A DNA stretch of 25,812 nucleotides from IMG/VR virus record IMGVR_UViG_3300031862_000041, positions 1 through 25,812 of that record; one strand, written 5' to 3'. The notes beneath the pieces are model-generated. The model searched no databases. It saw nothing but the letters and a program-made list of their open reading frames with translations, and had not been told where the DNA came from. The first letter of the stretch is position 1. Each line of letters begins with the position of its first letter. Below, piece after piece: positions 3,937-13,307 of this stretch. The DNA is from a virus. Position numbers and translations under genes: made by a program.

Positions 3937-4497
3937 GTGGCCAAGCTCAACGCCGCCCAAGCAGAGCAAATCTATCCGGTATCCCGCATGACGATAGGCC
4001 GCTGGATCAAGAGAGGCTACCTCGCGGCGGATATTCATGGGCAATTCGATGAAGAAGCCCTAAAGGTCGCCTTGGCCTCCAAATCCTCGCGCGGCCGCAA
4101 GCTCAGAAGGCAAGCAGGTCCTGCTCCCGGCGGAAATAGCATAAATCGGCGATATACCTCAGCCGACGTGATCGAGGAGGGCCACCGGGTCCGCAATGCG
4201 CTTAATAAGGCCAAGGCTATTCATGAACAGCTGCGGGTGCGGATCGCCATAAGAAAGATGATTCCGTATAAGATCGCACAGCAGGCGTTCCTGCAGCTTG
4301 GCGGAGTGCTGGAGGTCCAATTTCGCATGTTTAGCGAGCGGGTCGGCGAAAACCTATACGCCGCCGTACAGTCGGGAGAGGCTCTGCCGGCTTTCCGGCT
4401 CCGGCTCCAACAAGAGATCGACGCCTCCATGCGCTCCGTGCTCGCCATGGTCCAGCAGTCCGTGGAGAGTATGCGCCAGGAGGAAGGCGCGCCTTGA
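3937..4497 (+). CDS. Terminase small subunit (Nu1-like), probably from a leaderless start
   Basis: Recognises phage DNA for packaging and recruits the large subunit. With the GTG start the protein is 186 aa. It opens AKLNAAQAEQIYPVSRMTIGRWIKRGYL-like, a MerR/Nu1-type winged-helix segment (about 3-30), followed by a basic linker and a long helical region (NALNKAKAIHEQLRVRIAIR) like the oligomerisation helix of Nu1-type proteins. A longer reading from TTG at 3901 is rejected because those codons are the promoter itself. No Shine-Dalgarno precedes GTG 3937; it lies at the expected +1, so translation is probably leaderless. It overlaps the next gene by 4 bases and begins an operon that ends with the large terminase. 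Confidence 0.8.
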   Translation: MAKLNAAQAEQIYPVSRMTIGRWIKRGYLAADIHGQFDEEALKVALASKSSRGRKLRRQAGPAPGGNSINRRYTSADVIEEGHRVRNALNKAKAIHEQLRVRIAIRKMIPYKIAQQAFLQLGGVLEVQFRMFSERVGENLYAAVQSGEALPAFRLRLQQEIDASMRSVLAMVQQSVESMRQEEGAP

Positions 4498-5180
4498 ATC
4501 TCAGTCTTATCCGATCATCCCTGCAGGCGGAAGGCGCTTGGCCATTCGATATCCACATCACTTGCTCGGGAGCCGAGGAGCTCCCGCTTGAGGCGCTAGA
4601 GGATCTTCAGGGCAATCTCAAACAGCGCACTGAGGAGGACATCATCAAGATCCTGCGCAGCATTCGTCAGTATGGCTTTAGCTTCCCCTTTTTCTATTGT
4701 TCCCTTGACGGGCATCGTTACTGCATGGATGGCCACGGGCGCATCATGGCATTATCCATTTATCGCAGGCTCGGCGGCTCGCTGCCGAGCCTGCCCTGTT
4801 GTCGGATTGAAGCGCGCGACCTGAAGGAAGCCAAAAACAAATTGCTGCGGATGAACTCGCGATATGGCGCCATCAACTCGGAGGCCCTGCTGGAGTTCAT
4901 CGATGACCTCGACCTTAATCCCGATGACCTATCTTTGCCGGACGTGGATATGGACGCGCTGGTCCCTCTGTCCTTAAGCCTCATCGATAACAGCCAAGAG
5001 GAGGATACAAGGACCGGCCGCACGAAGCCGGGTCACGGCGCAATGGTCGTCACCATCGGTACTTTTAGCGAACTGGTGGACATGGCAATCGGCAGCCAGA
5101 TAATCAAGCTCATCGGCGAGCGCTATGAAGGGCGGCGCATTGAAGGGTTCTTCCGCGAATGCCTGCGGTTTATTACCTGA
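4494..5180 (+). CDS. ParB/sulfiredoxin-fold protein
   Basis: A 228-residue protein with a ParB-like N-terminal domain: LEALEDLQGNLKQRTEEDI, a strand giving CSLDGHRYCMDGHGRIMAL (GHGR at 80-83, the ParB phosphate-binding signature), then LPCCRIEARDLKEAKNKLLRMNSRYGAINS and a tail with repeated acidic LDLNPDDLSLPDVDMDAL. This resembles the ParB domain found at the N-terminus of many phage DNA methylases, but no methylase follows; the C-terminal 60 residues are unassigned. The start is TTG at 4494, overlapping the small terminase stop (TTGA), with AGGAGG upstream. It overlaps the next gene by 22 bases, so the two are translationally coupled. Likely role: nucleotide- or DNA-acting accessory enzyme; not established. 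Confidence 0.8.
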   Translation: MNLSLIRSSLQAEGAWPFDIHITCSGAEELPLEALEDLQGNLKQRTEEDIIKILRSIRQYGFSFPFFYCSLDGHRYCMDGHGRIMALSIYRRLGGSLPSLPCCRIEARDLKEAKNKLLRMNSRYGAINSEALLEFIDDLDLNPDDLSLPDVDMDALVPLSLSLIDNSQEEDTRTGRTKPGHGAMVVTIGTFSELVDMAIGSQIIKLIGERYEGRRIEGFFRECLRFIT

Positions 5181-11429: not shown

Positions 11430-11888
11430 GTGCCCATCATCGCGTCGATCGAGGAGCTGGACCCGCGGATGCAGCCCGGCGTGCGCCGGTATCTGCGCCG
11501 CTGTGGCGAGATCGGAATCCCCCTGAAAGTCCTTGAGACCCGCCGGGAGTTGAGCGTGCAGATGGCCTACTACGCGCGCGGCCGCGCGCCCGCGGACCTG
11601 GTGCGCGCCTACTTCCAGCGTTGCGGCCTGTGGGCGATCAGCGACGAGGAGGCCGCCGCGGTCAACACGAAGACCCTCTACGGTAAGCATATCGAGGGTC
11701 TTGCGGCGGACATCGCGCCGCTATCGCCCGGGGGCAATGTCTGGTGGGCCGCGCCCCGGGAGGTATGGCTGCGGATGTTCGACATCGCAGAGAGCGAATG
11801 CGGCCTGGATGCCTGCGCCGCCGGCAAGTGGCAGGCGTGGCAGTGGGACTGGCCGCATCATGAGTTCGTGCGGGAAGTGGAGGAATAA
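11430..11888 (+). CDS. M15-family peptidase, probable endolysin
   Basis: A 152-residue peptidoglycan peptidase (L-alanyl-D-glutamate endopeptidase/VanY-like). The zinc-binding pattern is visible: GKHIEGLAADIAP with His87 and Asp94, and WDWPHHEF with His143/His144 near the C-terminus; ETRRELSVQMAYYARGR (about 36-52) is the usual upstream strand-helix. No signal peptide is seen, so export would depend on the neighbouring holin-type proteins. The start is GTG at 11430, two bases after the previous stop. Size and motifs agree with compact phage endolysins. Confidence 0.88.
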   Translation: MPIIASIEELDPRMQPGVRRYLRRCGEIGIPLKVLETRRELSVQMAYYARGRAPADLVRAYFQRCGLWAISDEEAAAVNTKTLYGKHIEGLAADIAPLSPGGNVWWAAPREVWLRMFDIAESECGLDACAAGKWQAWQWDWPHHEFVREVEE

Positions 11889-11889
11889 T

Positions 11890-12144
11890 GTGAAAAGGTT
11901 CCTGCAAAAGCTCGGGGACATGTTCCTCGATCAGGCCGGAGGGCTCGACGAGAAGCGCGTGCTGGGCGTGCCCATCGTCGTGACCGCCGTAGTCTATGTC
12001 TGCGTGACGGGCAATCTTGGCGTCTTTGCCGCGCTCGCCGGCCTGGGAACCCTGCTCCTGGGCATCGGAGTGGCCGGCGACCAGGGCAAGCTGGACGTGT
12101 CCTCTAAGCCGGATGATTCGGCATCCGGCATCGTGGGTAGCTAA
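11890..12144 (+). CDS. Probable holin (84 aa, two membrane segments)
   Basis: Starts at GTG 11890, with GGAGG (11879-11883) 6 bases upstream, overlapping nothing. The protein VKRFLQKLGDMFLDQAGGLD is followed by two hydrophobic segments (about 25-40, VPIVVTAVVYVCVTG; about 43-63, GVFAALAGLGTLLLGIGVAG), then a polar tail DQGKLDVSSKPDDSASG. Two short transmembrane helices and a polar C-terminus directly after an endolysin are typical of class II holins. I infer holin from topology and context only. Confidence 0.68.
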   Translation: MKRFLQKLGDMFLDQAGGLDEKRVLGVPIVVTAVVYVCVTGNLGVFAALAGLGTLLLGIGVAGDQGKLDVSSKPDDSASGIVGS

Positions 12145-12146
12145 AG

Positions 12147-12683
12147 ATGAAAGACGGCACCATCGGGCTGCTCAAGGGCGATAGGCAAAAGAGCGCCGAC
12201 CGCGCGATCATGGAGATCACCGGCTCCGAGTACACGCATGCCCGTATCTATATCCTCGGCTTCACCATCGAGAGCACGGTCTGGATGGCGCGGGGGAGGC
12301 TTTTCCCGCGTAGCGGAGTGCTGCTCACTTTAGGCAAGCGGAAATCCGACGCCTACTTCGAGCCTAAGGTCGACAGGACTCCCGAGCAGGCGCGCGCCGG
12401 ACTGGAAAAAGCTATCGAGCTGGTGAACTCCCGCGCCTGGTACGCCTACTTGCTCACCTTCCTGGATTTCATTTTGTATCCGACGCGCGCGCTCTGGCGC
12501 TGGATCTATAAGAAGACCGGCTGGGCGCCGTTTGTCTCCAGCCGCACAAACTGCTCCTACCTCGCCGATCTGTTGGAGAAGGAAATGGGGCTGGACCTCT
12601 GGCCCGATATGCCGGAATCGCTCACCGTGCCCGGGGATTATCCGTATTGCAAGCAACTTGTGCAGACGGGATGGCAGGACTAG
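12147..12683 (+). CDS. Permuted papain-like (YiiX/NlpC-type) cysteine hydrolase
   Basis: A 178-residue protein. DGTIGLLKG, then GSEYTHARIYI with His31, and later SSRTNCSYLADLLEKEMGL with Cys136, give the circularly permuted NlpC/P60 arrangement (His first, Cys later) found in YiiX/YebB-type proteins. A hydrophobic stretch (about 98-122, YAYLLTFLDFILYPTRALWR) could associate with membrane. Family members cleave amide or peptide bonds in peptidoglycan or lipid-linked substrates. It sits between holin-like and spanin-like genes, so a second lytic activity is likely, though a role other than lysis is possible. Confidence 0.75.
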   Translation: MKDGTIGLLKGDRQKSADRAIMEITGSEYTHARIYILGFTIESTVWMARGRLFPRSGVLLTLGKRKSDAYFEPKVDRTPEQARAGLEKAIELVNSRAWYAYLLTFLDFILYPTRALWRWIYKKTGWAPFVSSRTNCSYLADLLEKEMGLDLWPDMPESLTVPGDYPYCKQLVQTGWQD

Positions 12684-12701
12684 TTGGATGAGGAGGAAAT
12701 T

Positions 12702-13307
12702 ATGCGGGAGGTAATGTGTTTAAAATCAAGTGGTGGCTTCTGGCGATCATTTTCTTGGCGGGTCTTGCTCTTGGCGGTTTTGTTATTTGGCGCCATGATC
12801 TGGCCGCTGGCAGCGCAGCAGAGCGCAGGCTCACCGCCGACAAGCGGGAGCTCTATGCCCGACTCGACTCCGCCATTGGAGCTCTTGCTCGCAGCCGACG
12901 CGAAATTAACGGAGCTCAACAGGCAAATACCGATCTTGCAAGAGCAAATCAAGAGCTTGCAGGCCGACTTGGCGACAGCCAGCGCACAAATAGCCAGCTC
13001 CGAGAGCAGCTCCGAGCTGCTCAAGGCGCAATTGCGGGACTCGCAGGACAAGCTGGCGCAATCGGAGAGACAACGGGCGGTATTGCAGAGCTGGCTCGCG
13101 ATGCTCAAATCCTCTTACGACGCGCAATCATCGGCCTTGGAGGCAATCCAGGGCCAGGCGCAAGTAGTGATCGGTGATTATGAGGATGCCTTGAGGGCCG
13201 AGCGGGCGAAAGCCCTGGGCTGGAAGATTGGGGGCGCCGTCGTCGGCGTTACGCTCGGCGCTGCGGCGGCGTATCTCGCCGGGCATTTTATCTTGCATTG
13301 GTGGTAG
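12702..13307 (+). CDS. Spanin-like periplasmic coiled-coil protein, frame A
   Basis: A 201-residue protein with a hydrophobic N-terminal segment (about 20-40: WRVLLLAVLLFGAMIWPLAA, cleavable or anchoring), a Ser/Pro-rich linker, a long coiled coil (about 60-150: KLTELNRQIPILQEQIKSL to LAQSERQRAVLQSWLAML), and a C-terminal membrane segment (about 177-200: GAVVGVTLGAAAAYLAGHF). There is no lipobox. The start ATG 12702 has its own AGGAGG (12691-12696) 5 bases upstream; ATG 12684 lacks a site. The gene encloses a second reading frame (12716-13177) with its own ribosome-binding site. The arrangement recalls Rz/Rz1 but both products carry coiled coils. Exact role in outer-membrane disruption is inferred. 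Confidence 0.72.
   Translation: MREVMCLKSSGGFWRSFSWRVLLLAVLLFGAMIWPLAAQQSAGSPPTSGSSMPDSTPPLELLLAADAKLTELNRQIPILQEQIKSLQADLATASAQIASSESSSELLKAQLRDSQDKLAQSERQRAVLQSWLAMLKSSYDAQSSALEAIQGQAQVVIGDYEDALRAERAKALGWKIGGAVVGVTLGAAAAYLAGHFILHWW
12716..13177 (+). CDS. Rz-like inner-membrane spanin, nested in frame B
   Basis: A 153-residue protein entirely within the gene at 12702-13307 but in another frame. It has a single N-terminal transmembrane helix (KWWLLAIIFLAGLALGGFVI, about 4-25) and then a long alpha-helical coiled coil rich in Ala, Gln, Arg and Leu (about 30-120: ARSRREINGAQQANTDLARA, ANQELAGRLGDSQRTNSQLR), the topology of an i-spanin (lambda Rz). The start is GTG 12716 with GGGAGG (12706-12711) 4 bases upstream, distinct from the site used by the outer frame. 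Both frames look protein-like over about 460 bases. Confidence 0.68.
   Translation: MFKIKWWLLAIIFLAGLALGGFVIWRHDLAAGSAAERRLTADKRELYARLDSAIGALARSRREINGAQQANTDLARANQELAGRLGDSQRTNSQLREQLRAAQGAIAGLAGQAGAIGETTGGIAELARDAQILLRRAIIGLGGNPGPGASSDR

Follow-up and report, generated by a model that had tools for sequence, protein, structure and literature searches.

Two overlapping reading frames in the lysis region of a virus genome each predict a coiled-coil protein with a hydrophobic N-terminus, and the question that this locus raises is whether both frames are coding and, if so, whether their products stand in for a spanin complex, which in its classical two-component form requires an outer-membrane lipoprotein (PMC6139136). 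The window, as the analysed stretch is called here, spans a virus record of 25.8 kb that carries genes for terminase, portal, lysis proteins, a ClpP-like protease and capsid. At its left end lie a tyrosine integrase gene (150-1325) and, on the minus strand, a tRNA-Cys (GCA) gene (1832-1905) that is possibly an attachment site or a phage-borne tRNA. Between the early genes and the terminase sit a gene for a 228-aa product with no Pfam or NCBIfam match (4494-5180) and, directly after it, one for a Radical SAM protein (PF04055; 5159-6385).

We refer to ORF 12716-13177 (153 aa) as the inner or i gene and to ORF 12702/12714-13307 (201 aa when read from ATG 12702) as the second or outer gene; the frames of the two differ, and their features are collected in Table 1. 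A first-pass annotation had described an inner ORF lying wholly within the outer one in another frame, each preceded by its own Shine-Dalgarno (SD) sequence, and both SD sequences, both starts and the nesting are found in the window exactly where it had placed them. Absent from that account was ATG 12714, a second in-frame start of the outer gene that overlaps GTG 12716 and represents the form common to the relatives described below.

Table 1. Features of the dual-frame locus and the adjoining lysis genes (window coordinates)
Feature	Position	Strand	Basis
Small protein with C-terminal TM segment	11083-11427	+	conserved in L023; similar proteins in L020, L026
Endolysin candidate	11430-11888	+	position
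Holin candidate	11878-12144	+	homologues directly precede the pair in L001, L002, L020, L026
178-aa gene, no family match, inserted between holin and pair	12147-12683	+	sequence
AGGAGG SD, 5 nt before ATG 12702 (optional longer N-terminus of second product)	12691-12696	+	sequence
GGGAGG SD before twin start	12706-12711	+	sequence; SD-like sequence at comparable place in relatives
Twin start ATGTG: ATG 12714 (second) and GTG 12716 (i), shared G	12714-12718	+	2- or 4-nt spacing in 14/17 loci
i-spanin-like gene	12716-13177	+	sequence; Rz-like spanin PHROG matches
N-terminal TM helix of i product	~12734-12790	+	hydropathy
Gly/Pro-rich tail of i product	~13139-13174	+	sequence
Second (outer) gene, +1 relative to i	12714-13307	+	sequence; dual-frame constraint; ATG 12702 adds 4 residues
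Signal-peptide-like N-terminus of second product, likely cut ...WPLAA/QQS, no lipobox	12714-12815	+	cut site inferred from -3,-1 rule
Pro-rich N-terminal part of mature second product, predicted to be unstructured	12816-12872	+	sequence, model
Long helix/coiled coil of second product	12873-13211	+	AlphaFold2 model
C-terminal hydrophobic Gly/Ala-rich helix, wholly past i stop	13212-13304	+	sequence, model

Shuffling of synonymous codons in the window alone gave a probability of 0.11 that the +1 frame would be open given the i protein, and of 0.015 that the i frame would be open given the second protein. As these values are only moderate and the single case is not decisive, the matter was settled with relatives. 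Direct searches with either product found none in viral_contigs or phages, and a later viral scan with the second product returned only L063 and L085 again; because both products evolve too fast for direct search, relatives were sought through the terminase and portal. The portal search gave L001 and L002 (portal 75% identical), the terminase alignment 38 loci and a six-member portal alignment 80 loci. The pair was recognised in 15 other virus contigs (L001, L002, L020, L023, L026, L055, L057, L058, L060, L063, L064, L066, L084, L085 and L096), giving 16 loci with the window, and in truncated form in L062, giving 17, and the second ORF lies in +1 relative to i in every one. Aligned with MAFFT, the pairs are nearly unalignable, with ~10-28% identity to the window's products, and must therefore be old. 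The GC content of the loci ranges from 37% to 65%, which rules out an artefact of base composition. When ~110 loci were scanned for +1 pairs with hydrophobic segments at the N- and C-terminal ends, these pairs came back together with one unrelated match (L123); the scan is specific only when membrane features and position are required, since background ORFs also give -2/+4 starts with open frames and the geometry by itself is not proof. No host genome was found in scans of genome_contigs. The spanin-like pairs of L001 and L002, whose genomes are otherwise nearly identical, have identical N-termini and similar C-termini and differ strongly between them in both frames, which may reflect fast divergence or recombination inside the dual-coded gene.

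Combined over 16 loci, the probability of the open frames fell to 6e-6 for the +1 frame given i and to 1e-17 for the i frame given the second protein. Substitution patterns pointed the same way. Over the same DNA, L063 and L085 are 56% identical in i and 53% in the second product, and their differences at i codon positions 1/2/3 number 46/36/42, against, for example, 153/93/284 in neighbouring genes; six such genes together have a third-position share of 56%, from which the share in the pair is reduced with p 1e-6, and identical codons encode 82% of conserved residues compared with 50% in control genes (p 5e-9). For L001 and L002 the position-3 share was 0.32 in the pair and 0.77 in control genes. 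L023 and L057 had 71% identical codons versus 47% (p 1e-4) and no significant drop in position-3 share (p 0.26). Between the window and L026 the position-3 share was 0.36 versus 0.46 (p 0.004) and codon identity gave p 0.064, this strongly diverged comparison, like that of L026 with L055, being too distant for a strong selection test. In a mirror test, with second-frame synonymous codons shuffled, the i frame was conserved beyond chance in all five pairs tested; a null that retains identical codons was uninformative, because selection on the second frame itself keeps those codons. The neighbouring genes lack the dual-frame substitution pattern. Dual coding with purifying selection on both frames is thus well supported by these sequence comparisons. 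The first-pass annotation had called for a per-frame comparison of this kind and had held that homologues with a broken inner frame, and constraint in one frame only, would speak against its reading; neither was seen among the relatives that carry the pair.

Start sites in the relatives are our own calls. On these calls, the second gene starts at -2 or +4 relative to i, a spacing of 2 or 4 nt, in 14 of the 17 loci. The window, L020, L023, L026, L057, L062, L084 and L096 have ATGTG (second ATG, inner GTG), L060 has GTGTG, and L063, L064, L066 and L085 have ATGAATG, in which the inner ATG is followed 4 nt later by the second; the start region of L058, ATGGGTGTG, is compatible with either spacing. 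The starts are 16 nt apart in L055 and 61 nt apart in L001 and L002, where the second start has its own SD. An SD-like sequence stands a few bases upstream of most twin starts and is weak in L064. The separate ribosome-binding sites noted earlier are thus real in the window but not typical, one SD preceding both starts in most relatives, and nesting likewise fails as a general rule, for several relatives have the start of i upstream of that of the second gene, which then outruns the end of i. The natural reading would be that both starts compete for initiation on one ribosome-binding site; the extra SD and ATG 12702 of the window are a further chance for the outer gene to start.

Both products were modelled as single long helices with hydrophobic N- and C-terminal ends. 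The i product, with one long predicted helix or coiled coil over residues 6-141, has the predicted N-terminal TM domain and periplasmic helical domain that characterise an i-spanin. It weakly matched Rz-like spanin PHROGs 2466 (E 3.7e-5) and 214 (E 2.7e-4), and the i product of another member matched Rz-like spanin PHROG 739, matches that are weak and of a kind that coiled coils can inflate. In the AlphaFold2 model of the second product, helices span residues 54-95 and 100-196, with pLDDT mostly 80-92 in the coil, and in profile searches it matched many unrelated coiled-coil families. All 17 second products have a type-I-like signal peptide without a lipobox, ending in A/S before Q, E, D or S, and the Pro-rich stretch is found in the GC-rich group. 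A hydrophobic C-terminal segment, weakly hydrophobic in L001, L002 and L060, is present in every complete second product, and the C-terminal helix '..AYLAGHFILHWW' of the window resembles '..AYLAGHYIFRIW' of L026. Hydropathy and the -3,-1 rule are the basis of the signal-peptide and TM calls. The architecture first read from the window, namely an N-terminal hydrophobic segment and long coiled coil in both products, a C-terminal membrane segment in the outer one and a lipobox in neither, was borne out.

The pair is located after the endolysin and holin genes, and its two genes overlap within the lysis cassette as those of two-component spanins do. The candidate in the endolysin slot of the window matched no family; among close relatives the contents of this slot are unrelated (an Amidase_2 protein in L002, 6350-6931; in L001, 5905-6372, a protein with a YkuD-like match below cut-off), and the holin genes beside it are conserved. 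The gene inserted before the pair in the window had no tblastn match in L001, L002, L020 or L026. No o-spanin lipoprotein candidate was found in the searched flanks of the loci, the one lipobox match there being unrelated and 1.4 kb downstream in L058. In L052 and L054 a holin gene of the same type and, after it, the gene for a small TM protein precede a single ORF of 242 aa (L054 11030-11758), which lies close to where the pair would be and has no second frame open. Its product has N- and C-terminal hydrophobic segments, and its C-terminus is like those of the second products of L020 and L057 (E 0.002-0.01), LYEGGHALKVW of L054 resembling IYEGGRALKWWK of L020; this protein may be a one-protein version of the pair, the similarity being weak.

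Because of its position, its architecture and the lack of another candidate, the pair is likely to be an outer-membrane disruption module. If the host is diderm, as we assume, the locus would quite likely be a dual-coded envelope-protein pair in place of a two-component spanin, and the pair probably functions like one, an assignment that draws on position, architecture and weak profile matches. The fuller proposal, a lipoprotein-free spanin system in which a type II and a type I protein, encoded on nearly the same DNA from overlapping or 4-nt-spaced starts behind one SD, would jointly disrupt the outer membrane, we consider evenly balanced. The earlier suggestion of a different type of dual-coded spanin system accordingly fits the +1 dual coding, the two-frame selection, the cassette position, the Rz-like matches and the missing lipobox, its spanin part being a matter of interpretation.

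A single message with closely spaced starts (ATG 12714, optionally 12702; GTG 12716) would be read in two frames. One would yield an i-spanin-like protein of type II topology, anchored in the inner membrane and extending into the periplasm as a helical rod. The product of the +1 frame would be exported by means of a cleavable signal peptide and would consist of a Pro-rich N-terminal part, a long coiled coil and, at the C-terminus, a hydrophobic helix. The choice of start by the ribosome would set the ratio of the two proteins, whose rods would assemble across the periplasm and, once the endolysin had cut the peptidoglycan, cause disruption of the outer membrane, with the C-terminal helix of the second product possibly taking over from the usual lipid anchor. 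The classical spanin mechanism is not directly applicable to a system that lacks an outer-membrane anchor, and two models may be envisaged. Type II and type I inner-membrane rods could lie antiparallel, their distal Pro-rich and Gly/Pro-rich ends touching the outer membrane, or the C-terminal helix of the second product could enter the outer membrane and so bridge the two membranes.

The pair resembles each known spanin type in part. As in lambda Rz/Rz1, the second gene lies in the +1 frame of a type II inner-membrane coiled-coil protein within the lysis cassette (PMC6139136), but Rz1 is a short Pro-rich outer-membrane lipoprotein, whereas the second product here combines a coiled coil with a C-terminal TM segment. 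With no lipobox in the second products and no linked lipoprotein ORF to serve as o-spanin, the pair is not classed as a two-component spanin. Embedded spanins have the o gene in the distal half of the i gene, ~70% of them starting at 0.4-0.5 of its length (PMC6139136), whereas the starts here are mostly 2-4 nt apart and the second product, at least as long as the first, outruns the i stop. In overlapped spanins of the P2 LysB/LysC type the second gene also runs beyond the end of i, but examples overlap by 70 bp (T5) and 155 bp (Jersey) (PMC6139136), as against ~300-500 nt here, where the lipobox is missing. The unimolecular spanin T1 gp11 shares an exported N-terminus and a C-terminal TM domain; it is, however, an N-terminal lipoprotein from a single gene and mainly beta, unlike the helical second product, which has no lipobox and is paired with an i-spanin-like protein.

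Dual coding could also be real with only the inner product of spanin type, the second being another lysis-cassette protein that adjusts when lysis occurs, for example a membrane protein with a coiled coil that resembles an antiholin or XhlA. We regard this as unlikely: 3 of 15 second products weakly matched PHROG 937 'hemolysin' and one matched 1193, and a coiled coil with a C-terminal TM segment is XhlA-like, but the cassette already has a holin candidate and a small C-terminal-TM protein (with similar proteins in L020, L023 and L026), the second product has an export signal, and the flanks offered no other o-spanin candidate. Improbable, in our view, is a second product that acts alone in the manner of a u-spanin, its N-terminus exported and its C-terminus carrying a TM segment, with the type II protein as a chaperone or regulator. 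The single ORF of L052 and L054, at the same place and with a similar C-terminus, and the signal and C-terminal TM domain of T1 gp11 (PMC6139136) would suit this view; against it, the second product has no lipobox, hence no known outer-membrane anchor, and the i frame is as strongly conserved as the second. Ribosomal frameshifting near the 5' end, yielding two products from one start, is highly improbable: T TTA AAA follows just after the twin start in the window, but this heptamer is missing in L020, L023, L026, L057, L084 and L096, each frame has its own start codon at the right place, and the starts of L001 and L002 are 61 nt apart; as a general mode of production it was rejected. The notion that the second frame is left open in +1 as a by-product of a coiled-coil gene in GC-rich DNA, as the window's 0.11 would allow, is scarcely credible and already contradicted by the same arrangement in AT-rich relatives (37-41% GC), the absent third-position excess and high codon identity relative to control genes, the conserved signal peptide and C-terminal helix, and the near-coincident starts.

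In a limited literature search we found no description of this arrangement. Among 677 phages with Gram-negative hosts, 91 yielded no spanin in the lipobox-led survey of Kongari et al. (2018); the criteria of that survey left out other topologies, and it allowed a type I inner-membrane protein with a C-terminal TM domain as a possible spanin, with none reported (PMC6139136). The dual-coded pair is a concrete candidate for this topology, selected over large distances. Its twin start is a compact route to two proteins from one initiation region, and gene callers will miss such pairs. As the candidate pair is kept by selection, lipid-free disruption of the outer membrane becomes directly testable.
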